Both the position numbers and the translations under genes were made by a program. DNA of 39,882 nt, taken from IMG/VR virus record IMGVR_UViG_3300037189_005209, positions 1 through 39,882 of that record; one strand, given 5' to 3'. The notes under the pieces were generated by a model that made no database searches, was not told the origin of the DNA, and worked only from the letters and a program-made list of their open reading frames with translations. Source of the stretch: a virus. Positions 2,806 through 32,200 of the stretch are shown piece after piece. The stretch's first letter is position 1, and every line of letters begins with the position of its first letter.

Positions 2806-4350
2806 ATGTCAGATGCAATCGTTAAAAATCTAAACTTCGGAAAAGAAGCTAGTGAAAAAGTATTTGCAGGAATAGAAAAGTTAACAAAAGCTGTTAGTTC
2901 TACTCTTGGTGCAAGTGGTAAATGTGTTCTTCTAGAGGACTCTATGGGTAAGCCTGTTATTACTAAAGATGGTGTATCCGTAGCGGATTCAATTATTTTG
3001 TTAGACCCTGTTGAAAATATGGGTGCAACATTATTAAAAGAAGCGGCTAGAAAAACAGTTAGGGAAGCCGGAGACGGTACAACCACTGCAACAGTATTAT
3101 CTCATGCAATTTTAAGCGAAGCATATAAATCGCCTGAAATTAATACTAGAAAAATGAAAGAAGGTATTGAAACAATGTGTAATAAAGTTGTTGAATACCT
3201 TGAAAAAAATAAAATTGAAGTTAAAGGAGATATGATTGATCAAGTAGCAACCATATCTACAAATAACGACAAAGAATTAGGTAAACTTGTTGGAGATGCA
3301 TTTAGATCTGTAGGTAATACAGGAATTGTAATGATGGAAACATCAACTGATGCAGAATGTAGTTTACAAGTAGTTGAGGGTGTTCAATGTTCTATGGGTT
3401 TAACCACTCCGCATTTTGTTACAAATCAAAAAAGCAAAACAGCAGAACTTGATAGTCCTTTAGTATTGTTAGTGGAATCTGAAATAGAGAGTATACGACA
3501 AATACAGACTATATTAGAATATGTTATAAAAAATAATAAGTCCTTACTTGTTATTGCTGATATGGATCAAACAGTCTTATCTGCATTAGCAATGAATAAA
3601 GTAAAGGGCAATATAAAAATAAATGTTATTAATGCACCAGTTTATGGAGTTAATAGAAAAGAGATCTTTGATGATTTAGCTTTATTAACAGGAGCAACAT
3701 TAATAAACGAAGATTTAGGCGATGACTTAGATTTGATTCAGCCAGAACATTTAGGGCATTGCGTTAAAAGTATAACAAACCAAGAGGAGACAATTCTACA
3801 TGTAGGAGAATCCTCAGAAGAGGTTAAAGGAGTTATTGAGGAAGTAAAAAATACTTTACTACAAAATAATCCTCAACCAATGGTTGTTAAACTAGAAAAA
3901 CGATTAGCCAGACTTACTGCTAAAATTGCAATTGTAAGAGTTGGAGCTAATTCAGAAATAGAATTAAAAGAAAAAGCAGATAGAATAGAAGATGCAATTT
4001 GTGCTACAAAAGCAGCAATCAAAGAGGGCATTGTATCAGGAGGAGGAATTGCTTTATTAAATGCTTCTTATAATATAGACGCATTTGGAGATGGTCAATC
4101 TGTCTTATTAGACGCAATACGAGCTCCTTTTAATACTATTCTTAGAAATGCGGGTATAGAAGAAGTGCCATTAGATGTAGTCTCAAAAGTAGGTTACGGA
4201 TTAAATGTAGTGACAGGAGAAACAGTTAATATGATTGATGCTGGTATTATTGATCCATTATTGGTTACAAAAAGTGCATTAAAAAATGCAGTATCTGTTG
4301 CAACAACAATATTATCAACTGATTGTGTAATTAATAATTTAAGAGCATAA
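2806..4350 (+). CDS. groEL: Phage-encoded GroEL chaperonin (Hsp60), divergent
   Basis: 514 residues, full-length GroEL organisation. The equatorial start has ITKDGVSVAD and the ATP-binding motif GDGTTTATVL (Asp90, equivalent to E. coli Asp87). The apical domain starts near VVEGVQCSMGL and includes INAPVYGVNRKE where E. coli has KAPGFGDRRK. The return to the equatorial domain has LKEKADRIEDA (Asp396, equivalent to catalytic Asp398) and GIVSGGGIALL. ATPase residues are therefore kept, while several apical substrate/GroES-contact positions differ from bacterial consensus. The C-terminal GGM repeat tail is missing; the protein ends CVINNLRA. It probably folds phage virion proteins in place of, or alongside, host GroEL. 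The stop overlaps the groES start. Host GroEL is normally ~545 aa. Confidence 0.95.
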   Translation: MSDAIVKNLNFGKEASEKVFAGIEKLTKAVSSTLGASGKCVLLEDSMGKPVITKDGVSVADSIILLDPVENMGATLLKEAARKTVREAGDGTTTATVLSHAILSEAYKSPEINTRKMKEGIETMCNKVVEYLEKNKIEVKGDMIDQVATISTNNDKELGKLVGDAFRSVGNTGIVMMETSTDAECSLQVVEGVQCSMGLTTPHFVTNQKSKTAELDSPLVLLVESEIESIRQIQTILEYVIKNNKSLLVIADMDQTVLSALAMNKVKGNIKINVINAPVYGVNRKEIFDDLALLTGATLINEDLGDDLDLIQPEHLGHCVKSITNQEETILHVGESSEEVKGVIEEVKNTLLQNNPQPMVVKLEKRLARLTAKIAIVRVGANSEIELKEKADRIEDAICATKAAIKEGIVSGGGIALLNASYNIDAFGDGQSVLLDAIRAPFNTILRNAGIEEVPLDVVSKVGYGLNVVTGETVNMIDAGIIDPLLVTKSALKNAVSVATTILSTDCVINNLRA

Positions 4351-4610
4351 TGAGAGCAATTGGTAAATGTTTAATAATAGAGAAAATAAAGGAAGGCACC
4401 ACTAAAACAAAAGGCGGTTTAATGCTAGCCGAAAGCCAACGTGAGGACATTAGATATATTAGAGCTAAAGTTCTTAAAATTGGGGATGAAGTTGTTGGCG
4501 TTAAAGAGGGTGATGAAATTTTTTATGATCGCCATGCCGGACACAAAATAGAGGTGGATAAAGATACATTTCATGTAATCAGATTAGGTGACGTTGTAGT
4601 AGTATTGTAA
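4350..4610 (+). CDS. groES: Phage-encoded GroES co-chaperonin
   Basis: 86 residues, slightly shorter than bacterial GroES (~97). The cpn10 features are in order: a GKCLIIEKI strand, a mobile loop with Gly-Gly-hydrophobic tip (TKGGLMLAES, equivalent to GGIVL), a VLKIGDE strand, the GDEIFYDR strand, and the ending VIRLGDVVVVL like bacterial 'ESDILAIVE'. It caps the GroEL ring and regulates release of substrate. It is translated from an ATG overlapping the groEL stop, so the two are a coupled pair. Having both subunits suggests a self-sufficient phage chaperonin. It is distinct from the tandem GroES-like gene at 9775. Confidence 0.9.
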   Translation: MRAIGKCLIIEKIKEGTTKTKGGLMLAESQREDIRYIRAKVLKIGDEVVGVKEGDEIFYDRHAGHKIEVDKDTFHVIRLGDVVVVL

Positions 4611-5071
4611 TGAGATTAGAGCCTAAAGACATAAAAGATATTGGGTTATTAAAACATTATAGAATAATTAGGCGATGGGCTTGCAGAAATAATAATTTAA
4701 CAGATGCAGATCTAGAATTATTAATTTACTTTGATTGCATGGATTTTTTTACCAAACAGGATTATAAGATAGGTACATACGCATATAGTTGGGACAATAA
4801 GCGCTGGAACAATTTATTAAAAGAAGGGTGGATAGTAGTATGGCGAAATAGAAACCGTACAACCCAAAAGTATAATATATATAAAGTTTCATTTAAGTGC
4901 AAACAACTAATAAATAAAATGTACCGTATAATGCTGGGGAAAGATGATTTACCAACAAGTGAATCTAGAAATGTTATTATGAGAGGTAAAACTTATATGG
5001 ATAATGTAATGATTACCGCTATAGAAAATGTAAACAAAGATAAAACAAGAAATAGATATGATGAATTTTAA
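4610..5071 (+). CDS. Winged-helix (MarR-like) protein
   Basis: 153 residues. The first ~110 residues have a MarR-type pattern: a helix with YRIIRRWACRNNNLT, 'DADLELLIYFDCMDFF', a putative recognition-helix region with WDNKRWNNLLKEGW, a beta-wing (IVVWRNRNRTTQKYNIYKVSF), and a helix KQLINKMYRIMLG resembling the 'LT.KG..L' helix after the wing. The C-terminal ~45 residues are polar and unassigned. It may bind DNA as a transcription or packaging regulator, or be a virion component that kept the fold. It is coupled to groES by a one-base overlap, so it belongs to the chaperonin operon. The fold call is by eye. Confidence 0.5.
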   Translation: MRLEPKDIKDIGLLKHYRIIRRWACRNNNLTDADLELLIYFDCMDFFTKQDYKIGTYAYSWDNKRWNNLLKEGWIVVWRNRNRTTQKYNIYKVSFKCKQLINKMYRIMLGKDDLPTSESRNVIMRGKTYMDNVMITAIENVNKDKTRNRYDEF

Positions 5072-9551: not shown

Positions 9552-9775
9552 TGGAAGTTGTTATTAGAAAAATCAGTATAGGTACTGATTATAAAAATGA
9601 AGCAATGCATTATTCGGTTGGACAACAGGTATACGGGGGTCATGAGATTGCCTGTATACTTGAGAACAACGATAACTCTTGCATGATTTATATAAAAAAA
9701 TCTGATGAAGTAATGCCGTGGAAAAAGTTTAATCCTAATATGGCAATTGCTCTTGAATACGATTTAGAATATTAA
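9551..9775 (+). CDS. Small hypothetical protein, 74 aa
   Basis: 74 residues, mixed beta-type sequence with HYSVGQQVYGGHEIACILENN and an acidic end. 'VGQxVYGGHxIxxI' suggests a compact beta fold. It is coupled by one-base overlaps to both the coiled-coil gene before it and the tandem GroES-like gene after it, so it belongs to the same assembly unit. No family recognised. Confidence 0.55.
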   Translation: MEVVIRKISIGTDYKNEAMHYSVGQQVYGGHEIACILENNDNSCMIYIKKSDEVMPWKKFNPNMAIALEYDLEY

Positions 9776-10395
9776 TGAGAAGTGTATTTGATTTTATTGT
9801 AAAACCTGTTGGAGCAAGATACGAAAATAAAGTAAATATTGATGGTAAAGAATTAATTATAAATACCAAGATAGAAAGCTTTAAATCTGTGAATAATCTA
9901 GCGGAAGTTGTTGAAGTGCCATTAGCATACAACACAATAATTGGAAAAGGTGATTTAATTATAATACATCACAATGTATTTAGAAGATTCTATGATATAA
10001 GAGGTAACCAAAAAAATAGTAGATCGTATTTTCAAGATGATCTTTATTTTGTAGGGGTTGACCAAATTTACTTATATAAAAAAAGTGAAGATAAATGGAA
10101 ATCTTTTGGTGATAGATGTTTTATAAAACCATTAAAAAATACATCGCATTTAAGTCACGAAAAAGAACGTAAGCTTATTGGTATATTAAAATATGGTAAT
10201 GATTCCTTAAACGAGCTTAAAATAAACGAGGGAGACCTTGTTGGTTATACTCCTAATGGAGAATTTGAGTTTATTGTTGATGGGCAAAGACTCTATTGTA
10301 TGAAATCTAATGATATTGTAATTAAATATGAATATAAAGGAGACGAAGCAGAACATAATCCACGCTGGGCACAAAGCAGTATTGGAATTAATTAA
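9775..10395 (+). CDS. Tandem GroES-fold (cpn10-like) protein
   Basis: 206 residues that read as two cpn10-like halves. Half one (~1-103) has FDFIVKP, then SVNNLAEVVEVP, then IGKGDLIIIHHNVFR and ends VGVDQIYLYKK. Half two (~110-195) has GDRCFIKPL, then KLIGILKYG, then INEGDLVGYTPNGEFEF and ends CMKSNDIVIKYE. Both follow the GroES order: 'RVLVKP', a 'G.V..VG' strand, 'VGD.V.Y', and a final 'E.DI.A'. Neither half shows a clear GroES mobile loop with a GG-hydrophobic tip, so it may no longer bind GroEL. It sits just upstream of the terminase genes and could act in head assembly. Overlaps the next gene by 68 bases. Confidence 0.6.
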   Translation: MRSVFDFIVKPVGARYENKVNIDGKELIINTKIESFKSVNNLAEVVEVPLAYNTIIGKGDLIIIHHNVFRRFYDIRGNQKNSRSYFQDDLYFVGVDQIYLYKKSEDKWKSFGDRCFIKPLKNTSHLSHEKERKLIGILKYGNDSLNELKINEGDLVGYTPNGEFEFIVDGQRLYCMKSNDIVIKYEYKGDEAEHNPRWAQSSIGIN

Positions 10396-10603
10396 AGTTG
10401 CTGAAGAAGCAATTTTAGATAACGGCGAAGATGATTTATCAGCAGACAAATTAAAAAATGCGGCTGCTACAAAGAAATTAGCAATATTTGATGCTTTTGA
10501 AATATTAAGTAGAATACAAGAAGAGGAAAGAATATTACTAGAAGATAGTAAAGAGGTTGAGGTTAAAGTGTTTAAAGGATTTGCAGAGGGGAGATCTAAA
10601 TAA
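10328..10603 (+). CDS. Candidate small terminase subunit
   Basis: 91 residues, helical and charged: KAVLELIKVAEEAILDNG, then LSADKLKNAAATKKLAIFDAFEILSRIQEEER. It lies immediately before the large terminase gene with a one-base overlap, the usual place for the small subunit that recognises DNA and regulates packaging. The only ATG gives a 68-base overlap with the previous gene; a TTG at 10382 would remove most of that but is less likely. It has no obvious helix-turn-helix, so the call is positional. It could instead be a packaging accessory protein. Confidence 0.5.
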   Translation: MNIKETKQNIIHAGHKAVLELIKVAEEAILDNGEDDLSADKLKNAAATKKLAIFDAFEILSRIQEEERILLEDSKEVEVKVFKGFAEGRSK

Positions 10604-12825
10604 TGTACAAACAAACACTTTATAGAATAGTACCGGATTACGTTAAATCTAGTGTTATAAAACAAAACAACCGACTTAATAAATGGAAGTATGGGTATAA
10701 TAAAGACCATGATATGGTTGTTATTAGTAAGACTGGAAAGATTGGTGAAATATATGAAATCCAAAATCTAAAAATAGCATTACCATTAATAGAGTCAGTT
10801 TATTCTAGATCAAAGAATAAAGAAGAACAATACTGGGAACAAATGCAATTCCCAAAAGAATTAAATAGAATTAAAAGCACCTTTGATTGGGCAAAACAAA
10901 CCGAAGCATTTAAAGATCGTTGGTATGATTATATAGACAACGAATTTAAATATAGAGAAGAAGGCTTCTCATTCTACAATAACGGAAAACCAACTTATGT
11001 AACAGGTACGCACTATATGTACTTGCAATGGAGCAAGATAGACGTTGGTGCGCCTGATTTTAGGGAATCAAATAGATTATTCTTTATATTTTGGGAAGCT
11101 TGTAAAGCAGATCCAAGATGTTACGGAATGTGTTATTTAAAGAACAGACGTTCTGGATTCTCATTTATGTCTTCCGCTGAATTGGTTAATCAAGCAACTA
11201 TATCTAGTGATTCTAGATTTGGTATATTATCAAAGTCTGGAGCTGATGCCAAAACAATGTTTACCGATAAGGTTGTACCAATCTCAATTAATTATCCTTT
11301 TTTCTTTAAACCAATCCAAGACGGTATGGATCGTCCTAAAACAGAATTGGCGTATAGAGTTCCAGCTTCTAAATTCACAAGAAGAAAATTAGACGCAAAC
11401 GAGAACACTCAAGAGTTAGACGGGTTAGACACTACAATAGATTGGAAAAATACTGGTGACAACAGTTATGACGGGGAAAAATTAAAACTTTTAGTACATG
11501 ACGAAAGTGGTAAATGGTTAAAACCTGATAATATATTAAACAACTGGAGGGTTACAAAAACCTGTTTACGTTTGGGTAGTAGAATTATTGGTAAGTGTAT
11601 GATGGGTTCAACATCAAATGCTTTAGATAAAGGAGGAGATAACTTTAAAAAATTATATTATGATTCCGACGTCACAAAAAGAAACCGCAATGGACAGACT
11701 AGCTCAGGATTATATAGTTTGTTCATACCTATGGAATGGTCGTACGAAGGATTCATTGATACTCATGGCTTACCTGTATTCGACACTCCAAAAAAAGCCA
11801 TTTTAGGAATAGATGGGAATGAAATAGATTATGGGGTTATTGAGCATTGGCAAAATGAAGTTGATGGATTAAAAAATGATTCTGATGCATTAAATGAATA
11901 TTACCGCCAGTTTCCTAGAACAGAACAGCATGCATTTAGAGATGAAACAAAACAATCTTTATTTAATCTTACAAAAATCTATGAACAGATTGATTACAAT
12001 GAAGATCTAAGAAATACGGCTGTATTAACACAAGGAAGTTTTCAATGGGAGAATGGAATACCAGATACTCGTGTAATATTTTATCCAAATAAAGACGGAA
12101 GATTTTTGGTTTCTTGGATTCCACCTATACATTTACAAAACCGCGTGATAATAAAGAATGGGATGAAGTATCCCGGTAACGAAGATTGCGGTGCGTTTGG
12201 CTGTGACCCTTATGATATATCAGGTACAGTTGATGGTAAAGGATCTAATGGAGCCTTGAGTGGATTAACTAAATTCTCTATGGAAGATGTTCCGCCAAAT
12301 ACATTCTTTTTAGAATATATTGCAAGACCTCAAACAGCTGAAATATTTTTTGAAGATGTTCTTATGGCCTGCATATTTTATGGGATGCCTATATTAGCAG
12401 AGAATAATAAACCAAGATTACTATTTCACTTTAAAAGAAGAGGTTATAGAGGTTTCTCAATGAATCGTCCAGACAAAGTTTGGAATAAATTATCTATAAC
12501 AGAAAAAGAAATTGGCGGAATACCAAATTCAAGTGAAGATATAAAACAAGCTCATGCCGCGGCCATTGAATCGTATATAGAAGATCATATAGGTATTACA
12601 GAAAATGGTTATGGCAATATGTACTTTAATAGAACATTAAATGATTGGGCTAGATTCAACATAAACGACAGAACAAAATATGATGCTGCTATTAGTTCAG
12701 GATTAGCAATTATGGCTTGCAACAGAAATAGATATGTCCCAACAAATCCAATAATTAGACAAAATTATAATTTAGGTATTAAGAAATACGATAATACAGG
12801 TTCTTTATCAAAAATACACAAATAG
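10603..12825 (+). CDS. terL: Large terminase subunit (DNA-packaging ATPase/nuclease)
   Basis: 740 residues. The ATPase domain has a deviant Walker A, KNRRSGFS (180-187), preceded by GMCYL, and a Walker B with acidic pair, LKLLVHDES (Asp300, Glu301). A downstream MMGSTSNA is the likely coupling motif. The C-terminal nuclease shows FGCDPYD (Asp535, Asp538) and a late acidic residue in TKYDAAISSGLA, as expected of the RNase H-fold headful nuclease. It translocates DNA into the prohead through the portal and cuts the concatemer. The arginine-rich Walker A (RRxGFS) resembles those of crAss-like and marine phage terminases. The TAG stop is followed directly by the portal ATG. Confidence 0.9.
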   Translation: MYKQTLYRIVPDYVKSSVIKQNNRLNKWKYGYNKDHDMVVISKTGKIGEIYEIQNLKIALPLIESVYSRSKNKEEQYWEQMQFPKELNRIKSTFDWAKQTEAFKDRWYDYIDNEFKYREEGFSFYNNGKPTYVTGTHYMYLQWSKIDVGAPDFRESNRLFFIFWEACKADPRCYGMCYLKNRRSGFSFMSSAELVNQATISSDSRFGILSKSGADAKTMFTDKVVPISINYPFFFKPIQDGMDRPKTELAYRVPASKFTRRKLDANENTQELDGLDTTIDWKNTGDNSYDGEKLKLLVHDESGKWLKPDNILNNWRVTKTCLRLGSRIIGKCMMGSTSNALDKGGDNFKKLYYDSDVTKRNRNGQTSSGLYSLFIPMEWSYEGFIDTHGLPVFDTPKKAILGIDGNEIDYGVIEHWQNEVDGLKNDSDALNEYYRQFPRTEQHAFRDETKQSLFNLTKIYEQIDYNEDLRNTAVLTQGSFQWENGIPDTRVIFYPNKDGRFLVSWIPPIHLQNRVIIKNGMKYPGNEDCGAFGCDPYDISGTVDGKGSNGALSGLTKFSMEDVPPNTFFLEYIARPQTAEIFFEDVLMACIFYGMPILAENNKPRLLFHFKRRGYRGFSMNRPDKVWNKLSITEKEIGGIPNSSEDIKQAHAAAIESYIEDHIGITENGYGNMYFNRTLNDWARFNINDRTKYDAAISSGLAIMACNRNRYVPTNPIIRQNYNLGIKKYDNTGSLSKIHK

Positions 12826-15231
12826 ATGAATATATACACAAATACAAATAGTGCATTTCCAAGCCAGGTAGTACCTGATGCGGTAAAAGCATCTGAAGAA
12901 TACGGACTACAAGTATCACGTGCTATTGAACAAGAATGGTTTGATCAAGGTAGAACAACTCAGAATAGGTATTTAACTAATTGGAATAACTTTCATCAGT
13001 TAAGATTATACGCAAGAGGAGAACAATCTGTACAAAAATATAAAGACGAATTAGCAACAAATGGAGATGTTTCCTATTTAAATTTAGATTGGAAGCCAGT
13101 TCCTGTAATATCAAAATTCGTTGATATTGTTGTTAATGGAATGTCGCAAAAAGGATACGATATTAAAGCGTATGCCCAAGATCCTGAATCAATAAAGCAA
13201 AAAACAAATTATGCTCAAGCTATTTTGCGTGATATGTATGCTCAGGATCTTATTAATAAAGCAAACTCTTTAACGGGAGCAGACTTTTCTAATTCACCAT
13301 TAGGTAAAGAAGATTTACCTGAGACAAAAGAGGAATTAGAATTGCACATGCAACTTAATTATAAGCAATCCGTTGAAATTGCAGAGGAAGAAGCTATTAA
13401 TAATGTTCTTGCTCAAAACAAATGGGACTTAGTTAGAAGAAGACTTAATTATGATTTAACTGTATTAGGTATTGCTTGTGTTAAAACAAATTTTAATGTA
13501 AGTGAAGGAATTAAAACAGAATATGTAGATCCTGCTTATTTAGTTTATTCTTATACAGAAGACCCTAACTTTGAAGATATTTATTATGTTGGAGAAGTAA
13601 AAGCAGTGACTATTCCTGAATTAAAAATGCAATTTCCTGATATATCAGAAGAAGAATTGTATAGAATACAACAAATGCCAGGTAATAGACAATATATTAC
13701 TGGATGGGGTAACTACGACGAAAACACAGTTCAAGTTTTATATTTTGAATATAAGACTTATATGAATCAAGTGTACAAAATAAAATACAATGAAAATGGA
13801 ATGGAAAAAGTTATCGAAAAAACAGATGACTTTAATCCGCCAATGAATGATAAATTTGATCGTGTAGCTAGAACAATAGAAGTATTATATACAGGAGCTA
13901 AAGTTCTGGGGACAAACACAATGTTGGAATGGAAGTTATCTGAAAATATGTCTCGCCCATATTCTAACATGACAAAAGTTGAAATGAATTATGTAATTAC
14001 AGCGCCTAGAATGTATAAAGGTAGAATTGATTCTATCGTTAATAGAATTACAGGTTTTGCAGATATGATTCAGTTGACACATTTGAAATTACAACAAGTG
14101 ATGTCAAAAATGATACCAGATGGAGTATTTGTTGATGTTGATGGATTAGCAGAAGTCGATCTTGGCAATGGAACAAATTATAATCCAGCGGAGGCATTAA
14201 ATATGTATTTCCAAACGGGGAGTATTATTGGTAGGTCCATGTCTCAGGATGGTGGATTTAATCAAGGCAAAATACCTATTCAAGAATTAACAAGTTCATC
14301 AGGTCAAGCTAAGATTGCATCATTAATACAAACTTACCAATATTATTTACAATTAATACGCGATGTTACGGGACTTAATGAGGCGCGTGATGGAAGTATG
14401 CCAGAGCAAGATACATTAGTTGGTTTGCAAAAAATGGCGGCCAATGCTTCGAATACTGCAACAAAACATATATTACAAGCAAGTATGTTTTTAACATTAA
14501 GAACTTGTGAAAATATATCTCTTAGAATTGCAGATGTATTGGATTTCCCGTTATTGGCAAAGACATTGGAAGAAAGTATTACAGTTTATAATACTGAAAC
14601 ATTAAAAGAAATTAAATACCTTAATCTTTATGACTTTGGTATTTATTTAGAACTTGAGCCAGACGAAGAAGAAAAAGCAATGCTTGAACAAAATATTCAA
14701 GTTGCATTACAAAGTGGAAGTATTGACTTAGATGATGCTATCGATATTCGTCAAATAAAGAATTTAAAGTTAGCAAATCAAACTTTAAAGTTTAGAAAAA
14801 AGAAAAAAGCCCAAGCTGCTCAAGCTGCTCAAATGGCAAATATCCAAGCGCAAGCACAGGCTAATCAACAGACTGCTGAAAAAGCAGCAATGTTTGAAGT
14901 GCAAAAACAACAAGCATTAACACAAGAAACTGTAAACGTAGAACAAGCAAAATCGCAGTTTGAAATTCAAAGACTCCAAACAGAAGCGGAAATCAAAAAG
15001 CAATTAATGCAAATGCAATTTCAATTTGATATGCAATTAGCGCAATTAAAACAACAAGTTGTTAATAAAAACCTTGAAGAAGCTGAAAATAGAAAAGACA
15101 ATAGAACAAAAATACAAGCTACACAGCAATCAGCATTAATAGATCAGCGTAAAAATAATACATTACCTCAAGATTTTGAAGACAATGGAGTCAATTTTTT
15201 AGAAAACTTAGGTGATCAATTAAATGCATAA
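12826..15231 (+). CDS. Portal protein
   Basis: 801 residues. The body has the portal signature of a long alpha/beta wing, RMYKGRIDSIVNRITGF, then a helical stem region and the segment YLQLIRDVTGLNEARDGSMP, typical of portal crown/stem transitions in podovirus-like portals. The last ~120 residues are an Ala/Gln-rich coiled coil (KKKAQAAQAAQMANIQAQAQ), probably the barrel. Twelve copies would form the ring through which DNA enters and leaves the head and to which the tail attaches. It abuts terL without spacing and is followed by the scaffold candidate and the capsid gene, the usual packaging/head order. Confidence 0.88.
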   Translation: MNIYTNTNSAFPSQVVPDAVKASEEYGLQVSRAIEQEWFDQGRTTQNRYLTNWNNFHQLRLYARGEQSVQKYKDELATNGDVSYLNLDWKPVPVISKFVDIVVNGMSQKGYDIKAYAQDPESIKQKTNYAQAILRDMYAQDLINKANSLTGADFSNSPLGKEDLPETKEELELHMQLNYKQSVEIAEEEAINNVLAQNKWDLVRRRLNYDLTVLGIACVKTNFNVSEGIKTEYVDPAYLVYSYTEDPNFEDIYYVGEVKAVTIPELKMQFPDISEEELYRIQQMPGNRQYITGWGNYDENTVQVLYFEYKTYMNQVYKIKYNENGMEKVIEKTDDFNPPMNDKFDRVARTIEVLYTGAKVLGTNTMLEWKLSENMSRPYSNMTKVEMNYVITAPRMYKGRIDSIVNRITGFADMIQLTHLKLQQVMSKMIPDGVFVDVDGLAEVDLGNGTNYNPAEALNMYFQTGSIIGRSMSQDGGFNQGKIPIQELTSSSGQAKIASLIQTYQYYLQLIRDVTGLNEARDGSMPEQDTLVGLQKMAANASNTATKHILQASMFLTLRTCENISLRIADVLDFPLLAKTLEESITVYNTETLKEIKYLNLYDFGIYLELEPDEEEKAMLEQNIQVALQSGSIDLDDAIDIRQIKNLKLANQTLKFRKKKKAQAAQAAQMANIQAQAQANQQTAEKAAMFEVQKQQALTQETVNVEQAKSQFEIQRLQTEAEIKKQLMQMQFQFDMQLAQLKQQVVNKNLEEAENRKDNRTKIQATQQSALIDQRKNNTLPQDFEDNGVNFLENLGDQLNA

Positions 15232-16459: not shown

Positions 16460-17938
16460 ATGTCAAACATGATTAATGCCCTTACGGGTACAAACTATGG
16501 GACAATTAAACCGTCTCAAAGACAGCAAGCGTTAGAAACTAACTATTTAAATTTTACTAACGGAACTAATGACTTTGCTCAACAATACTTACCAGAAATC
16601 TACGAAGCTGAAGTAGAGCGTTATGGAAACAGAACTTTATCTGGATTCTTACGTATGGTAGGCGCTGAAATGCCAATGTCTTCTGACCAAGTTATCTGGT
16701 CTGAACAAAACAGATTACATATTGCTTATACAGGTGTTACTTGTGCTTCAGCTACAACTTTAACATTTCCTGTATCTGCTACTGCAAGTGTTAGTGGATC
16801 TTATGTAAGTAATGTAATTTCTGTAGGCCAAACTTTAGTAGTTATGAGCCCTTCTACAGGAAAAGAATTAAAAGTATATGTTACTGGATCTACAACTACT
16901 GCTACAAGTGGTTCATCTGGTACTGCTACAATTACTTGTAAACCATACACTCAATTAGATTTAACTACTGGCTCCGGTAATGTTGTTAACTTTGCAAGTG
17001 CTACAGATCTTAAAATCTTTGTTTATGGTTCTGAGTTTAAAAAAGGAACTACAGATGCTACTATTAATTCTGTAACTCCATCTTTCACTCAATACAACAA
17101 TTCACCAATCATCATTAAAGAAAAATATCAAATCTCTGGATCTGATACTGCTCAAATTGGATGGGTTGAAATTGCTACGGAAGATGGTGCTTCAGGATAC
17201 TTATGGTATTTGAAAGCTGAATCTGAAACAAGATTGCGTTTTGAGGATTACTTAGAAATGTCAGTAGTTGAGGGTGAATTAGTTTCTGGAGGATCTACAT
17301 TAACTTCTGTTGATGGTATGAAAGGTACAGAAGGTCTTTTTGCTGCTGTTAAATCAAGAGGAAATATTGTAAACAACTTTACTGCAGCTTCAGGATTAAA
17401 TGACTTCGACTCTATCTTGAAAGGATTAGATACTCAAGGAGCTATTGAAGAAAACATGTTCTTCCTAAACAGAGCTACTTCATTAGATTTTGATGATATG
17501 TTGGCTTCTTTATCTGCTGGTGCTGCTGGTGGTGTTGCTTACGGTTTATTTGAAAACTCTGAGCAAATGGCACTTAATTTAGGTTTCTCTGGATTCAGAA
17601 GAGGATCTTACGATTTCTACAAAACTGACTGGAAATACTTAAATGATGCTTCTACTCGTGGTGGCATGGCTAATACATCTATTGATGGTATCCTTATCCC
17701 TGCTGGAACTAGCACGGTTTATGACCAACAATTAGGGACTAACATCCGTCGTCCATTCTTACACGTTCGTTATAGAGCTAATCAAGCTGATGACAGACGT
17801 ATGAAAAACTGGATTACTGGATCTGTTGGAGGAGCTTACACATCTGATTTAGATGCAATGCAAGTTCACTTTTTATCAGAAAGATGTTTAGTGACTCAAG
17901 GGGCTAATAACTTCGTATTATTTACAGCTTCTGTATAA
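16460..17938 (+). CDS. Major capsid protein
   Basis: 492 residues. The N-arm (residues ~1-60) leads to RYGNRTLSGFLRMVGAEMPM and SDQVIWSEQNRLHI, which resembles capsid proteins of crAss-like and related Bacteroidetes phages; the fold is presumably HK97. A Ser/Thr/Gly-rich insertion (~90-190, e.g. STTTATSGSSGTATIT) may be a surface domain. The C-terminal part has YGLFENSEQMALNLGFSGF and a late beta-rich region ending QGANNFVLFTASV. Codon use is strongly biased (GCT, ACT, TCT, GGT, more C-ending codons) compared with flanking genes, as for very highly expressed proteins. It is followed within ten bases by a strong terminator. Confidence 0.88.
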   Translation: MSNMINALTGTNYGTIKPSQRQQALETNYLNFTNGTNDFAQQYLPEIYEAEVERYGNRTLSGFLRMVGAEMPMSSDQVIWSEQNRLHIAYTGVTCASATTLTFPVSATASVSGSYVSNVISVGQTLVVMSPSTGKELKVYVTGSTTTATSGSSGTATITCKPYTQLDLTTGSGNVVNFASATDLKIFVYGSEFKKGTTDATINSVTPSFTQYNNSPIIIKEKYQISGSDTAQIGWVEIATEDGASGYLWYLKAESETRLRFEDYLEMSVVEGELVSGGSTLTSVDGMKGTEGLFAAVKSRGNIVNNFTAASGLNDFDSILKGLDTQGAIEENMFFLNRATSLDFDDMLASLSAGAAGGVAYGLFENSEQMALNLGFSGFRRGSYDFYKTDWKYLNDASTRGGMANTSIDGILIPAGTSTVYDQQLGTNIRRPFLHVRYRANQADDRRMKNWITGSVGGAYTSDLDAMQVHFLSERCLVTQGANNFVLFTASV

Positions 17939-20907: not shown

Positions 20908-23900
20908 ATGGCGGAAATAAAAAATAGTTTTCTATCGTCTAAAATGAATCAAGATTTAGACGATAGACTTATACCTAACGGTGAATATAGAACTGCACTT
21001 AATATTTCTATTGGTAAATCGGAAAATAGTGATATTGGTACATTACAAAATATACTTGGTAACACCATTGTTGGATTGGAAAATACTATAATTGGATTAG
21101 AGTGTATTGGGTATTATATGGATAGTACTGGAAACAGGATATTCCAATTCTTGACTAATGAAGGGGATAATGATACTGACCCTATATATCATCAAATAAC
21201 TGTTTATGATTTTACAAATAACACTTATACGGTATTAGTAGAGGGTGCTTTTTTAAACTTCTCAAAATCATATCAAATAACAGGAGTTACTCTTATTGAA
21301 AATTTATTATATTGGACAGATTATAACAATCAACCAAGAAAAATAAATATTAATTCCGCGTTAAATGCCCCTGCTTATAGTGCCGCTCCTTATTATACAA
21401 ATGAAGATCAAATATCTGTAGCAAAATATGCTCCGGTAGAAGCAATGTCATTGTATAAAAAGGTTGTAACAACTAATACGGCAATTGTTGCTGCTTCAAC
21501 TACAATACCTGTTGCAAGCACTAATGGTTTAGTAGAGGGAATGACTTTATTAACGGATGCGTATGCTAGTAATGAATTTGTATTCATAGAAAGTATAACT
21601 GGATCAAATGTAACAGTTTCAGTCCCTATTACATTATCAATTAATACGGAATTAACATTTTTAATTTCTACCATGTCTAATCAAAGTGAAGACCCTTACT
21701 GGCCTGGTGATCCGGCATATTTAAAATCAAGATATGTAAGATTTAGTTATAGATTTAGATTAGATGATGGGGAATACACTTTAATGGCTCCATTCACTCA
21801 AATAGCTTTTATTCCAAACCAAAAAGGATATTTTATAAATGGAAATGAGAATGAAGCTTACACAAGTACCGTATTAAATTGGTTTGAAAATAGCATTAAT
21901 AATATACAATTACTTGTACCATTTCCAGACTTAACTTCTAATGTAACTCAGTCTTATAAGATTCAGTCATTAGATATATTATATAAAGAATCAGATGGGC
22001 AGACCGTTAAAATATTAGACACAATTTTAAGTGCTCAGTTTGCTCAAAATACATTAAATAATAGTAATATATATATATACGATTATCAATCAAGAAAACC
22101 ATATAAAACACTTCCCCCTGATCAAATTACAAGAGTATATGATATAGTTCCTGTAAGAGCTAAAGGGCAGGAAACCTCTAGCAATAGAATAATATATGGT
22201 AATTTTGTTAGTGGATACACTGCTCCTCAATCATTAAACTATCAAGTTTCAGTTGGTGCAAAACAAGATTATTCATATAATTTTATAGAATATCCAAATC
22301 ATACCGTAAAACAAAATAGAACGTATCAAGTTGGATTTATATTGGCAGATAAATATGGAAGACAATCTTCTGTAATTTTATCTTCATTAGATACTTCCGC
22401 AACTTTAACAGCTAATGGGACTTATGGCGGATCAACAGTATATTCACCATATTACTCAGAAGCTGATATACCATCTATAAAAGATTGGTATGGAGACGCA
22501 ATATCTGTTTTAGTAAATAGTCCTATAGTTTCAAATTATAATAGACCTACAGGAGAGCCTGGATTATACGCAGAATCAACTTCAACAACTGGATTTACAT
22601 TAACAGGAACTACAACAATAACTAATACAACTTATATTTTTACTGTAAGTGGAGGAATTATACCTAATGAAGGGGAATATTTAAGAGGTCAATATACAGA
22701 TTATGTAAAAATAAAAACTATAACAGGCACTTATCCTGGACCGTTTACTGCTACAACAGAAGGTAGAGTTAATAGTATATATGCTAGAAATACGGATAAT
22801 GATCCGAATGATATTAAATACGTATATACTATTAATCCTTTAGGTTGGTATTCATATAAAATTGTAGTGCGACAACAAGAACAAGATTATTATAATGTTT
22901 ATCTTCCTGGGTTTTTAGATGGTTACCCAAAGGGACAGACCTATGGTTCCCAAGTTGTATACGATTCAACCGGAATACCATCTACACAGAATGGAATAAA
23001 TACTACTGTATTTCCAACTGCAGAATCTGGTACTGTGGCCCATACAGTATTAATAAATGATAATATAAATAAAATACCTAGAGACTTAGTTGAAGTTGGT
23101 CCAGATCAAAAATTATATAGAAGTAGTGTTCAATTATTTGGTAGAGTTGAAAATACTATTAATACTGGTGTTGCATCTAATACTCAATATTATCCATCTA
23201 AAAAGGCGGATACGGCTATTGCAATTGCTACAGCATCGGAATTAAGTTTTTTACCAGCAACAGTTGAGAACAAGAGAGGATCAGCTACTTATAATTTTTA
23301 TCAATTAGAAAGTAATCCATTAATTGCTCGTATATCTACAACAAATGATATAGGGGTAGTTGCTGTTGAAAATAGTGCAGTATCTCCATATCCGTCTAAT
23401 CCAAATAATATGCTACCTTATTTAGGGGTTTACGAAACTAAACCAGATTATTCTTTACTAGATATATTTTGGGAAACATCCACTAGTGGGTTAATATCAG
23501 ATTTAAATACTGATGTATTAACTGGTTATGATGGCGCAAATGGAATATCAGAAATAAATTGGAGTACTTTTACAGAAGATTTAGATCCTAATGACTCAGC
23601 AGACAAATTTATAACTGGATATTTTTATCCAATATCAAATACTGGTATGCCTGTAAACTCTACAAATGCAGCTATATCTGTAGTAAATGGATATGGTAAT
23701 CCTATAACTGGAGTTTTTGGATTAGAATCAACATACGTTGGTGGAGGTACTCCACATTATGAATATAGAATTTACATGCAACCTAATCAATACCAAGTAT
23801 TTAGAAATGATGTGAATCTAGGGAAATATACATTTATATTTTCTTTTATTCAAGACGGCCAAACCTCAACTACATCTTATAATTTAAATGCACAATTAAG

Positions 23901-25068
23901 GAATATTGCACCAACAATAACAGATACTGCTTTAAATCCATTAGCTGGACCAGTTAATGTATATTTGAATAGTCCTATTACAACAGGTACTCCTGTGTAT
24001 TCTTTATGGGGTAAAAATGGATCAAACCCTGGAGCTGCCCAAAACTTTACAGATCTTCGATGGAAAATAAATAATACCGGATCAACTTCAGGTTGGCAAA
24101 ATTATTTTAATATAATTACAGATCCTTCATTAAGCTTAGGTGGAATATACCAAATTAATCCATTAAATGATAATCAAATTATTACATTGAATGTTGAATT
24201 GCAAGATGCAATGAGTTCGTCCGGCGTGCCTGCTAATGGGAACGGCTATTACGGCTCTTTATCTGATAATATAACTATAAATATACAATTAGCATCTGTA
24301 TTAATTTGCGGAAGAAGATGGACAAGTCGTAATTATGATGGAGATCGATACCAAGATGGGACTATAATACCTCAAGCAATAAATGCAACACAATGGTCAA
24401 ACGCTACCACAGGTATGTGGTGTTACCCTAATTTTGATGAAGCAAATGCGTATTTAGGTAAGTTATATAATGTATATGCTATAAATGGTATATGGAGTGC
24501 ATCAAACCCGGGGGATAAAAAACAATTTGCCCCTACCGGATTTAGAGTTCCATTCTATCAAGAACAATGTATACTAAGTTGTACCAATACCACCCATATG
24601 AAATCATTAACTCCTGCTTATCCAGCTCCTGGATCATGGGTTCCAAGTGTACATTTAGGAGACAACTCTACTGGATTTTCAGCATTACCGGCTGGTTATA
24701 TGGATGAAACAGGCACTTGGGTAAATACTGGTGGTAATGGACAAATAGCTATATACCATATGTTACCTCCAACTGCTAGTTTCTTAGATAATAGTCCTGC
24801 TTATATGGCTATTTATGGAAATACTGATACAGCCGATATACAACAGGGTGTACCTATGAGATGGGGATTATCTGTAAGATTTGTAGATAATTTCTCTATA
24901 ACTAAAACAATAACAAATACAGCTTTACCTGGCGGACCTAATTGTATTGTTACATATAACGACACAAACTTTGGAAATCCACACGTAGATTCAATAGTTC
25001 CGGGACAATCTGAAGTAATTGTAGCCTGCGCTACTTGTACAATAGGTGGTAACTGTACAATTACATAA
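20908..25068 (+). CDS. Large tail protein: nozzle-like region plus C-terminal FISUMP domain
   Basis: 1386 residues. The N-terminus (KNSFLSSKMNQDLDDRLIPN, GEYRTALNISI) is a signature of large tail 'stabilization'/nozzle proteins of crAss-like and marine phages. Residues 132-145 contain a YWTD segment followed by NNQPRKI, suggestive of beta-propeller blades. The middle is Thr/Asn/Tyr-rich and beta-structured, with FWETSTSGLISDLN near 854-867. About residues 1132-1330 form a FISUMP-like domain: GRRWTSRNYDGDRY, then TTGMWCYPN, then LGKLYNVYA, then GFRVP, ending in RWGLSVRFVDN. A Cys-rich tail follows. It probably contacts the host surface. FISUMP domains are typical of Bacteroidetes surface proteins. 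Confidence 0.75.
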   Translation: MAEIKNSFLSSKMNQDLDDRLIPNGEYRTALNISIGKSENSDIGTLQNILGNTIVGLENTIIGLECIGYYMDSTGNRIFQFLTNEGDNDTDPIYHQITVYDFTNNTYTVLVEGAFLNFSKSYQITGVTLIENLLYWTDYNNQPRKININSALNAPAYSAAPYYTNEDQISVAKYAPVEAMSLYKKVVTTNTAIVAASTTIPVASTNGLVEGMTLLTDAYASNEFVFIESITGSNVTVSVPITLSINTELTFLISTMSNQSEDPYWPGDPAYLKSRYVRFSYRFRLDDGEYTLMAPFTQIAFIPNQKGYFINGNENEAYTSTVLNWFENSINNIQLLVPFPDLTSNVTQSYKIQSLDILYKESDGQTVKILDTILSAQFAQNTLNNSNIYIYDYQSRKPYKTLPPDQITRVYDIVPVRAKGQETSSNRIIYGNFVSGYTAPQSLNYQVSVGAKQDYSYNFIEYPNHTVKQNRTYQVGFILADKYGRQSSVILSSLDTSATLTANGTYGGSTVYSPYYSEADIPSIKDWYGDAISVLVNSPIVSNYNRPTGEPGLYAESTSTTGFTLTGTTTITNTTYIFTVSGGIIPNEGEYLRGQYTDYVKIKTITGTYPGPFTATTEGRVNSIYARNTDNDPNDIKYVYTINPLGWYSYKIVVRQQEQDYYNVYLPGFLDGYPKGQTYGSQVVYDSTGIPSTQNGINTTVFPTAESGTVAHTVLINDNINKIPRDLVEVGPDQKLYRSSVQLFGRVENTINTGVASNTQYYPSKKADTAIAIATASELSFLPATVENKRGSATYNFYQLESNPLIARISTTNDIGVVAVENSAVSPYPSNPNNMLPYLGVYETKPDYSLLDIFWETSTSGLISDLNTDVLTGYDGANGISEINWSTFTEDLDPNDSADKFITGYFYPISNTGMPVNSTNAAISVVNGYGNPITGVFGLESTYVGGGTPHYEYRIYMQPNQYQVFRNDVNLGKYTFIFSFIQDGQTSTTSYNLNAQLRNIAPTITDTALNPLAGPVNVYLNSPITTGTPVYSLWGKNGSNPGAAQNFTDLRWKINNTGSTSGWQNYFNIITDPSLSLGGIYQINPLNDNQIITLNVELQDAMSSSGVPANGNGYYGSLSDNITINIQLASVLICGRRWTSRNYDGDRYQDGTIIPQAINATQWSNATTGMWCYPNFDEANAYLGKLYNVYAINGIWSASNPGDKKQFAPTGFRVPFYQEQCILSCTNTTHMKSLTPAYPAPGSWVPSVHLGDNSTGFSALPAGYMDETGTWVNTGGNGQIAIYHMLPPTASFLDNSPAYMAIYGNTDTADIQQGVPMRWGLSVRFVDNFSITKTITNTALPGGPNCIVTYNDTNFGNPHVDSIVPGQSEVIVACATCTIGGNCTIT

Positions 25069-25097
25069 AAAAAAAGAAAAACAAGTAATTATAATAT

Positions 25098-26675
25098 ATG
25101 AGTGCAACAATAGAATTAAAATATTTCAATTCTTTTTGGCTTAAAAAAATGAAGTCAATCACAGATGTAACACCAAGCGCTCCGGATGCTAATCAACCGG
25201 CTATTGCGGTGCCATTACATGGAACATCTATAACTTTAGCAAGTGCTCAGCCAAATATAGGGCCAGGACAAGCAATATATTATACAATATCTGGTAATAC
25301 TTATACTTCTATAATAAAAAGTTCTGCAGGAGCCGTTATACAATTAATGTCTCCTACGGAAACCGCTATTGCAACTACTGTAAAACTTACGTTTGGCGAA
25401 ATTATAGATTTTAAATATGTACCAAGCTCTAGTGTATATAGTTATGATAAAGCAACTGACTGGTATATAGAGGAAGCTAGAATTAGAGGCGGTTATAACA
25501 ATACGACTGTTGACTTTGGTGTTAAAGCATATACTGTATTAGAAACCAATGCACAACAAAATAGACCAAATTCACTTATATATTCTGGTATATTTAATTC
25601 TAGAACAGGTGTAAATAATACAAATCAATTTTCTGTTGCTGATGATATAACTCGTTCGGTAGACCCAATAAATGGATCAATCCAAAAGTTATATGCGGAG
25701 GATACCAATCTTATTATATTCCAAGAGTTTAAAGTAAGTAGAGCGTTAATTGATAAAGATGCTGTATATTCCGCAGATGGTCAACCAATGACTACATCTG
25801 GTGCCGCTGTAATAGGTCAAATACAATCCTACGCGGGAAACTATGGTATAGGAACTAACCCTGAAAGTTTTGCTGTTTATGGATATAGAAAATATTTTGT
25901 TGATAGAAATAGAAATGCTGTTTTAAGATTATCACAAGACGGGATAACTGAAATATCTTCATATGGAATGTTGGATTTCTTTAGAGATCAACTTGGTGTT
26001 ATTGGTAGTACTGGTAAAATTGTTGGCGGCTGGGATATACATAACAAACAGTATGTTTTATCTTTACAGCCAAATGCATATTCAACTAATAATAAAGGAC
26101 AACAATTGCCATCATATACATTAGCATTTGATGAAGATTCTTTAGGATGGACAAGTTTCTTTAGTTATATACCTAATTATATGGACGGTATGCGTAATAA
26201 TTATTATAGTTTAAAAGACGGTAATATATGGGAACATTACTCTACAAATGTAAATAGGGGTAATTTTTATGGAGTAACATATACTTCCTATGTAACATTT
26301 GTATTCAATCCTAATCCTTCATTAGTTAAAAACTTTAACACTATAAATTACGAAGGTACACAAGGCTGGGTGATGAATAGTCTATATACAGATACTGACA
26401 AAGCTATCCCAATCAATGCAAATTTTACTGCTCAAAGTTTAGCTCAATTAGAAGCAAATTTGTTTACAAACAACTTTAAGCAAAAAGAAAATAAATTCTT
26501 TGGAAATATATTTAATAATACTACAGTATCTGGAGGAGATGTGATTTATGGACAATCGATGTCCGGTATAAAAGGATTATACGCTATAGTTACTATGACT
26601 TTAAATAATTCAATATATCCAAATCAAGCGGAACTTTATGCATGTTCTGCTGAATATGTGGAATCATCATATTAA
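25098..26675 (+). CDS. Tail nozzle-type structural protein (beta-propeller candidate)
   Basis: 525 residues. Successive blade-like units are visible: GSIQKLYAEDTNLIIFQEFK, FAVYGYRKYFVDRNRNAVLR, ITEISSYGMLDFFRD, and GGWDIHNKQYVLSL. The repeats of short strands ending in Asp/Asn turns fit a beta-propeller, the fold of the P22 gp10/T7 gp12-type nozzle at the end of short tails. It starts 29 bases after the 1386-aa tail gene in another frame. The two may be halves of one nozzle assembly that is a single protein in some relatives; that comparison is from memory. Confidence 0.65.
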   Translation: MSATIELKYFNSFWLKKMKSITDVTPSAPDANQPAIAVPLHGTSITLASAQPNIGPGQAIYYTISGNTYTSIIKSSAGAVIQLMSPTETAIATTVKLTFGEIIDFKYVPSSSVYSYDKATDWYIEEARIRGGYNNTTVDFGVKAYTVLETNAQQNRPNSLIYSGIFNSRTGVNNTNQFSVADDITRSVDPINGSIQKLYAEDTNLIIFQEFKVSRALIDKDAVYSADGQPMTTSGAAVIGQIQSYAGNYGIGTNPESFAVYGYRKYFVDRNRNAVLRLSQDGITEISSYGMLDFFRDQLGVIGSTGKIVGGWDIHNKQYVLSLQPNAYSTNNKGQQLPSYTLAFDEDSLGWTSFFSYIPNYMDGMRNNYYSLKDGNIWEHYSTNVNRGNFYGVTYTSYVTFVFNPNPSLVKNFNTINYEGTQGWVMNSLYTDTDKAIPINANFTAQSLAQLEANLFTNNFKQKENKFFGNIFNNTTVSGGDVIYGQSMSGIKGLYAIVTMTLNNSIYPNQAELYACSAEYVESSY

Positions 26676-29252: not shown

Positions 29253-32200
29253 ATGTTAGAATATGTAAATGAAAATGGTGAATCTTACACCGAGGATGAA
29301 ATAAATCAATTTGCAAAAGATAATAAAATTTCTATTGACGAAGTAATTAAAAAAAATAAGCTAACTGCTAAAAAACAAAGCCAAACCGTTAAGCCGGGAA
29401 AGCAAAAAACCGTTGCGGAAAAGGATGTAACTGTAACGGGAATAAATACGGCATCCAAATCGGGAAATACTTCTTCGGTTTCCAAAAAGCGTAAATCATT
29501 ATTTGACCAAGGTATAGAAACATTTGCTCCTGATCTTAAAGCCTCTTTTGAGGAATCTATGAATAAAACCATACAAAAAAAGAAAAAGGAGAAAGTTGCT
29601 TTTGAGACGTCTATAAAATCTAAAGGAATTCCAGGAACAGGTAGTAATGAAATAATTGAACCAACTATAGAGTCTGAAAAAGATTTACAAAAAACTATCA
29701 AAGAATCTTCTAAAGATAAATATTACCGATTACAACAATTAGGTAATGGATTACATCCTAGTTTATCCCATGAAGAAGGTGATGTAGCATGGGATGAAAA
29801 TGGTCTTAAAGGACCATCAAAATCTTATGTGCAAAAAGTTCAAGATGAAGCAGAAGCAAAAAAGCAAGAAGAAGAAGACTCAAAGTTAAATAATTATAGT
29901 GATAAATTAGGGGATAGCGTTTGGTCTACTCAAGAAGATTTAAACAATTACCAAAATAATGAAATATGGAATGCTTTAATTCCAGACGATCAAAAAAATC
30001 AATTAGGTAGTTCAATGGCTCCTGTGAAATTAACTAGCGAAACCTCTGTTAATCCATTAGGAATTGCGGATCAATCCCAAGAAATGGTAATTGACTGGAG
30101 CACAATACCAGATGGCGACTTAATTATAAAAGGTTTACCTACATTACAAAATAAATGGATTACTAAAAATGGACAAGTTCAATTGCAAAATGATCAGGCT
30201 GCTGGCATTGATCCTTATGCAAAAGCGCTGAACAATGGTAAATTATTTTTATCCACAAATGAAAAGAATTTACAAAAAAATCAAAGTTTATTATTACTTG
30301 CTAAAAAAAATAATAATAAGTCAGAAATAGACAGATTACAAAATGAAATCCAAAAGCAAAGAGACGAATTATCATTAGGTGGAAATTTATATGACCCTGC
30401 AACAGGTAAGTTGCTTACTGTAACTGATAAAAGAAAGGTTATTGCTAAAAGCAATGAAAAAGCAAAACAGATTGCAAATGATACACCATACACGGTGCTT
30501 AATCAAATGCAAGCTAAAACCTATTATGAGTTATTGGCATTGTCAAAAGAAGCTTATAAAAGGAAAGATAAAATTTATCGTTCTGAAACAGGATTAGAAA
30601 AAATAGGTACATTTTTAAAAAGTATTACACCAGGTATATCAAATGGATATTATGATGATGTTAAAAACTTAGAATCCATTGCAAAAACTGGGTACTTACC
30701 TAAAACATTAAATGAATTACCTGGCAAACATCCTATTTCTGCAGCTTTTAATAAAAAATTGCAACAATACATTACTTTAACAAAAGCAATGGAATTAAAT
30801 AATGATCCAATTACTACAGAATCTAATAGTAGAGCAGTAGACTTTTTAGATCAAACATTTAAAGCATTTACAAACCAAGGACATTATTCCGCTGTTGGGC
30901 CAGTTAATAGAAAAGAAGCTGCAGTTGCTTTTAATGATATGATGGCTACTGCGGGATTTGAATATAAAAATAAAGATGTAGTTGATAAAAAAGTTGAACA
31001 AACATGGAAAGATATTGCTATAGGGAGTACAGCTGAAATGACTCCTTTGATCGCGGCAATGTTCTTAACAAAAAAAGTTACTGGTCCCCAAATCACTCAA
31101 GCAGGGAATATTGCTACAAAAGTTGTACAGAATTCACTTGGAAATACTAAGGCGGTTAATACAGCCACAAGATTATTTATAGGTGGATTAAGTGAAGCTG
31201 CTCATATGAAAATAGCAGATAAAGTTTTACAACCAACCACCGGAGCGCCCGCAACAGACGGTACATTTGCTTTTTCATTAGGAGTAGGAAATGTAGTAGC
31301 AGAAGACTTAATAAAAACAATGGTAACTAAAAAAATACCTTTTGTTACACCTGTGTTAGCTACATTAGCAACCAAGTCTAAACTTGGGAGTAAGGTTGGA
31401 GAAGTAGCATTAGGGGCGGCAATTGGTACCGCTACTATGAAAGTTGCTGAAGGAGCCGCATTAGTTAAAGATCAATTATTAGCAAAAGGTCAATTAGATC
31501 AAGCAAAACAGTGGGAAGAACTTACTGATAAGCAACATTTAGCGGGTACTTTTTGGTCAATGACCTTATTAGGCGGATTTGCTCCTAAAGGATTTTATGA
31601 TGCATTAAAATCTGATATAAAATCTATCCCTGTGTTTAATACAGAATCTATAAGAGCAGGTAAATTATTAGATATAGATCATAAATTACCTGATAATACA
31701 AAAGATTTAGTAAATAGAGACAATGAAATAGATACTGCTGAACAAAAGGCTTTAGATAATTTAAATAAAAAATATAAAAATTCTACTGACTTTGAGACAA
31801 TGGCAAAAGAAGAAGTAGAAATTAGAAAAGCAGCTAATGTTTTAAGGGGTGATCTTGAAATAAAAAATGCTAAATTAAATATTGAAGCGGGTCATGAAAA
31901 TTCATCTTTAGCCGATGTATGGGTTGCAACTAATAAATTAAAATACGGTGAACAACTAAATGGTGCGGATGCTCATGCTTTATCTATCACTCCCTCTTCT
32001 ATAATTAAAAACCAATTAGGGCTTAATTCTAATGACCCTTTATATAAATTTATTAAAAGAGAACAACAAGAAGCTGAATCATATGGTAAAAAATTAGACG
32101 ATGCTGGCATATTTGGAGATACAGAAGAAAGAAAAGAATTACTAGGAAATTACTTTAAGGCAAGAGATATTTATAGAAAAATAAATGACTTAAAAATAGA

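Follow-up and report, generated by a model that had tools for sequence, protein, structure and literature searches.

The presence of adjoining groEL- and groES-like genes in a viral genome raises the question of whether the virus owns a complete folding machine and, if so, which proteins such a machine would serve. The DNA considered here, an IMG/VR record of 39,882 bases (referred to as the window, at its full length), appears to be a partial genome of a phage whose relatives are podovirus-like; this phage belongs to a group of uncultivated aquatic viruses with Bacteroidota-type bacteria as hosts. A preliminary description of the window proposed a private folding machine encoded by a rare gene pair. 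The reading favoured here, with a probability of roughly 0.7, is an old, private phage chaperonin which folds phage proteins, probably the capsid, with a possible second lid. Thus, the idea of a private machine is retained on the grounds of a phage-owned pair under selection that is no recent host copy, while the supposed rarity of the pair is abandoned.

The chaperonin gene row and its spread among phages

The groEL gene (2806..4350, + strand) encodes a 514-aa group I chaperonin subunit, which matches Pfam Cpn60_TCP1 (PF00118; E 2e-53, 182 bits against a cut-off of 34.3) over its full length (residues 26-510) as well as the PHROG groEL family (phrog_5725, E 3e-134). The following gene, groES (4350..4610, +), encodes an 86-aa co-chaperonin with both a Cpn10 domain above the cut-off (PF00166; E 4e-11, 43.2 bits against 21.1) and the hydrophobic mobile-loop triplet (motif KGGLML). 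Since adjacent reading frames match Cpn60 and Cpn10 at these E values, chance is excluded for the pair. At the junction (...gcaTAATGagagc), the stop codon TAA (4348-4350) and the start codon ATG (4350-4352) share a single base in a TAATG overlap, and an identical overlap at 4610 joins the groES stop to the start of a third gene, orf153 (4610..5071, +). The two genes described earlier at 2806-4610 are therefore confirmed by their reading frames, their Pfam and PHROG matches and their TAATG coupling, and together point to a phage-owned, complete and coupled group I chaperonin consisting of GroEL and its GroES lid.

Median dN/dS values (a simple Nei-Gojobori count over unsaturated pairs) of 0.16 for groEL and 0.24 for groES show purifying selection on both genes; the corresponding values are 0.115 for orf153, 0.116 for the terminase large subunit (TerL) and 0.245 for a tandem GroES-like gene discussed below. 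Across the clade, orf153 is kept 3' of groES; its predicted product is a winged-helix (MarR-like) protein (AlphaFold2 pLDDT 82.8), for which Foldseek gives weak matches among MarR-family proteins (best E 0.07). This slow-evolving gene may be the chaperonin row's own regulator. A ‘VpsT-like regulator’ occurs near a comparable spot in crAss-like phages. A scan of the sequence for sigma-70-type promoters returned fewer matches than in shuffles. On the 5' side of groEL lies a gene for a 127-aa DUF5675 protein (1775-2158), which is kept in many relatives.

Scanning of IMG/VR with the window GroEL yielded 80 closest loci (67-81% identity), and groEL is followed by groES in all 80, nearly always adjoining and with orf153 downstream; at one locus (L052) groES is displaced by about 360 bases. 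Among relatives of 50-67 kb, a single-domain Cpn10 is present in 14/14. When relatives were instead found through the terminase, groEL was seen in 8 of the 12 loci whose upstream sequence exceeds 8 kb. The position of groEL does not tie the chaperonin to a client: its start lies a median of about 6.5 kb upstream of TerL, and the gene is unfused to structural genes.

Both genes are also annotated in cultured phages, namely Cellulophaga phi40:1 and Calle_3 (Callevirus), Flavobacterium elemo (Elemovirus) and immuto, while groEL and groES likewise occur in the Manatee Spring podovirus MW202828 and in Maribacter phage Panino, the chaperonin pair of the latter having already been reported (PMC11590407). 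Bacteroides phage SJC03 carries an unannotated GroES adjoining its groEL. Furthermore, GroEL homologues were reported in 2017 from genomes of marine Flavobacteriaceae phages (PMC5332604), and chaperonins near polymerases in 2024 from immuto-like phages (PMC11348598). No GroES was found within 2.5 kb of groEL in five Vibrio phages, JM-2012, Goe21, MIZ-Pa99 or a 735-kb phage. The earlier generalisation that chaperonin-encoding phages mostly carry only one partner thus holds, over the 2.5 kb around groEL, for the loci tested from Vibrio, Bacillus, Pseudomonas and Halocynthia phages but fails for the Bacteroidota phages tested. With both partners in every one of the nearest IMG/VR loci and in cultured Elemovirus, Callevirus, immuto and Panino, the complete pair is an already known arrangement, and a usual one among the Bacteroidota phages tested.

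Residue conservation, ring contacts and origin of the phage GroEL

Residue numbers follow an E. coli-like GroEL (Citrobacter). The window GroEL retains the GDGTTT motif together with D55, D90 and D396 (equivalents of D52, D87 and D398), which are invariant in the readable clade sequences (D87 in 89/89, D398 in 90/90). The preliminary description was accurate on these points: Asp90 and Asp396 do correspond to D87 and D398 of E. coli, the GGM tail, which 74 of 80 cellular GroELs possess, is absent from the C-terminus (...STDCVINNLRA), and the apical contact residues are changed (Y199L, Y203H, L234Q, V263A and V264M), F204, L237 and L259 being unchanged. The GroES/substrate groove of the clade differs from that of cells at L199, H or N203, Q234, A262 and M263, of which Q234 (90/90), A262 (90/90) and M263 (88/90) are fixed or nearly so. 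Mean entropy within the clade amounts to 0.04 bits at the ATP/hydrolysis sites and 0.27 bits in the groove, compared with 0.78 bits over all equatorial sites.

The canonical inter-ring sites (K105, A109, E434, R452, E461 and V464, taken from E. coli numbering) present a different picture, with a clade entropy of 2.55 bits and two more sites deleted, against 1.21 bits for the same sites in cells. In the window GroEL, the equivalents of A109 and E434 are gaps, R452 is replaced by N and V464 by P, so that the canonical contacts of a double ring, which are typical of group I chaperonins though not essential for membership, are lost. Mitochondrial Hsp60, in which the same inter-ring salt bridges are missing, occurs mostly as a single ring (PMC5575113). 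Based on this parallel and on the deleted or variable inter-ring sites, the clade GroEL is predicted to be a probable single ring, although the subunits may form a double ring through some alternative interface.

The GroES lid is distinctive in its mobile loop, where the clade has an L-x-L triplet (G-G-L-x-L type, KGGLLL being the commonest form), as against mostly GIII or GIVL in cellular GroES with a loop readable by the script. A phage-specific, gp31-like loss of the GroES roof hairpin was also considered and dropped, the roofs of Flavobacterium and Prevotella GroES being nearly as short.

With regard to origin, the best cellular GroEL reaches 41% identity to that of the window (genome scan) and the best plasmid-borne one 42%, compared with 60-81% for phage relatives. 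A quick tree (87 rows) recovers the clade with support 100 within a phage-only set beside Bacteroidota (97), with long-branch warnings, while a more careful tree (53 rows) recovers it at 100/99 on a branch between Bacteroidota and other phyla. In both, the clade is monophyletic and outside every cellular genus. Cellular identities of at most 42%, together with the trees, rule out a recent host copy, and the phylogeny suggested at the outset against host and phage GroELs points to an old phage-specific lineage, on whose possible donor phylum the quick and the careful tree do not agree. Two database entries deserve separate mention: the GroEL of a faecal ‘Bacteriophage sp.’ (L250, MT835992.1) lies beside Lachnospiraceae in both trees and is probably a bacterial sequence deposited among phages, if not a recently captured gene, and that of a ‘Rokubacteria’ contig (L245, OMJU01000080.1) lies inside Flavobacteriaceae, probably through a binning error.

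A predicted tandem GroES-like protein upstream of the terminase

A further GroES-like gene (9775..10395, +), which the preliminary description did not mention, encodes a 206-aa protein and belongs to the row of genes immediately upstream of TerL (10603..12825, +; phrog_6681, E 1e-167), the anchor gene for finding relatives; a small ORF (10328-10603) overlaps its end. Nearly its whole length matches phrog_13932 ‘co-chaperonin GroES’ (E 3e-24), whereas its match to Pfam Cpn10 is sub-threshold and confined to the C-terminal half (10198-10326). A GroES profile built in this analysis matches the protein at E 5e-4, and alignment to GroES with hhalign is significant for the C half (P 5e-7) and weak for the N half (P 0.003). 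The AlphaFold2 model (pLDDT 84.7, pTM 0.78) has as its top match, in both Foldseek and VIA, the plastid Cpn20 of the Chlamydomonas ClpP entry 7ekq (7ekq_R), covering both halves (Foldseek E 8.7e-6; VIA Z 9.8 over 160 residues, rmsd 4.5); the next-ranked matches are single GroES chains, which align mainly to the C half. The product is thus predicted from the model to contain two GroES-fold domains in one chain.

Homologues occur in Elemovirus and Callevirus, directly upstream of TerL in both, as well as in Panino and MW202828, and have been labelled Cpn10, GroES or hypothetical by their depositors. A profile of the tandem protein matched 7 of 10 phage records and, in cells, none of 198 genomes (class of a Flavobacterium genome). 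Among the relatives of 50-67 kb, 11 of 14 contain a second, sub-threshold Cpn10 match in a frame of 201-216 aa corresponding to this gene. Tandem GroES proteins are not known to have been described outside plastids and apicoplasts; no description of the double-domain architecture in phages was found in the literature searched, which does not prove absence, and prior work on viral chaperonins may be wider.

As for crAss-like affinity, the window TerL is 45% identical to that of Elemovirus and about 30% to that of cr108_1. The genes just upstream of TerL in phi14:2 (gp106) and cr108_1 (gp083) were considered as tandem GroES candidates and gave no match. Upstream of TerL in the same phages, gp107 (L164:7767-8156) and gp084 (L165:10998-11378), both annotated as hypothetical, are weakly GroES-like, and hence the GroEL of each phage may likewise possess a lid.

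Clients, alternative readings and known systems

On the favoured reading of a private phage chaperonin, GroEL and GroES would be translated as a coupled unit, a single heptameric GroEL ring would catch non-native phage polypeptides, and the phage's own GroES would cap the ring in a cycle driven by ATP. The main clients would probably be virion proteins, above all a capsid candidate of 492 aa (16460..17938, +; phrog_13704 ‘virion structural protein’, E 4e-97). This protein is the likely major capsid protein, its identity being inferred from its position after the portal (12826-15231), as in elemo; a sequence search against the PDB gave no match for it. Its mass, which its length puts at an estimated 54 kDa, comes close to the capacity of the cage, a capacity already slightly exceeded by the 56-kDa capsid protein gp23 of T4, served by the special lid gp31 (PMC6318259). 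By analogy with this precedent for a near-limit capsid protein, the capsid protein is a plausible client. The giant protein (2,944 aa, 29253-38087), which had also been proposed as a client, is a poor one on size alone, being too large for whole enclosure in a cage that gp23 already slightly overfills.

Several observations concern the remainder of the window. The giant ORF has zero Pfam matches and occupies the relative place of the giant structural protein of Elemovirus. A muzzle-like virion protein of 1386 aa (20908-25068) matches crAss_MUZ over 140 residues and Fib_succ_major in its C-terminal part, and the next ORF (25098-26675) aligns with a more distal portion of the muzzle PHROG, giving the impression of one muzzle protein divided between two genes (20908-26675). 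On the opposite strand at the window edge, a ribonucleotide reductase fragment (phrog_367; 38937-39842, -) adjoins a 187-aa protein with weak similarity to DUF6445.

The pair could alternatively be a general proteostasis supplement, which replaces or boosts the host GroEL/GroES during infection, for instance when the host GroEL falls at a late stage or under stress, and has no dedicated phage client. The retention of the ATP site and mobile loop, with no client identified, is in keeping with such a role; nevertheless, it is unlikely, as such hosts already own a Cpn10 (4/4 Bacteroidota genomes checked) and a GroEL, and the shift of the groove to clade-fixed residues looks more like specialisation. 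The altered intra-ring salt-bridge positions (D83 replaced by R or K, K327 lost) would suit a phage GroEL that mixes with or poisons the host GroEL, or moonlights, instead of folding clients, but this explanation is very improbable, since the ATPase site is conserved and a matching GroES is under selection, as a functional two-part chaperonin would require.

The role of the tandem protein is more evenly balanced. With less confidence than for the steps above, it may serve as an additional lid with a dedicated role, or else as an adaptor presenting capsid or packaging proteins. It may equally be a part of packaging or head assembly that re-uses the GroES fold, for example as a terminase partner, without acting as a lid, in which case the reading of groEL and groES as a folding machine is unaffected; this is given a little less than an even chance, and the choice between second lid and packaging part is close to even. 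That the gene neighbours TerL not only in the clade but also in Elemovirus and Callevirus argues for a packaging part, as do the short C-domain loop, devoid of the hydrophobic GroEL-binding triplet, and a relative (L135) that has both TerL and the gene for the tandem protein, while no groEL was found in the 14.6 kb upstream within its contig. Conversely, the N-domain loop (residues 21-40), the least confident part of the model (block means of pLDDT 60-71), carries a nearly invariant L-I-I-N (L27 in 134/136, N30 in 135/136), the pattern expected of a putative binding loop, and in gut crAss-like phages of the crAss001 type a ‘10kDa chaperonin’ with one domain is encoded slightly upstream of TerL. 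The fuller proposal of a three-part chaperonin, with a single-ring GroEL, an ordinary GroES and a Cpn20-like tandem lid specific for capsid or packaging proteins, is tentative and rather doubtful.

If the private-chaperonin reading is true, the clade offers a natural system for asking what a single virus requires of a complete folding cage of its own, and for testing whether single-ring chaperonins arise repeatedly once free of the cell's proteome. It would also raise the question of why a tandem GroES exists in a virus, and give a testable identity to a terminase-adjoining gene usually labelled ‘Cpn10’ or ‘hypothetical’. The cultured relatives elemo and Calle make deletion and biochemistry feasible.

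Compared with known systems, three features go beyond the known pair: a ring that is probably single, a groove fixed within the clade and the gene for the tandem GroES. The cultured Bacteroidota phages (phi40:1, Calle_3, elemo, immuto and Panino) likewise have both partners close together, with GroELs 36-41% identical to that of the window, although GroES comes first in Calle and immuto. Bacteroidota hosts possess the same two-gene machine with the same catalytic residues, but the window GroEL, at about 41% identity at most, lacks the GGM tail, has a replaced groove and has lost the inter-ring contacts, and its gene precedes groES, unlike in the hosts. Phages EL, OBP and AR9 also encode GroEL-type chaperonins, those of OBP and AR9 being single rings (PMC9598537); direct comparison with phage chaperonins was limited to the GroEL-like phage-type PDB entry 6tmt (E 7e-29). 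These chaperonins work without a co-chaperonin, whereas the window GroEL comes with a GroES, on which it would be expected to depend, since groES overlaps the end of groEL. T4 gp31 is likewise a phage co-chaperonin and a precedent for a capsid-specific lid (PMC6318259), but it uses the host GroEL, while the window phage brings its own, coupled to groES. Plastid Cpn20, the best structural match of the 206-aa protein, similarly has two GroES-like domains per chain, from which the tandem protein differs in being viral and encoded beside TerL, in its identity of 15% and in having a plausible binding loop in the N-terminal domain only.
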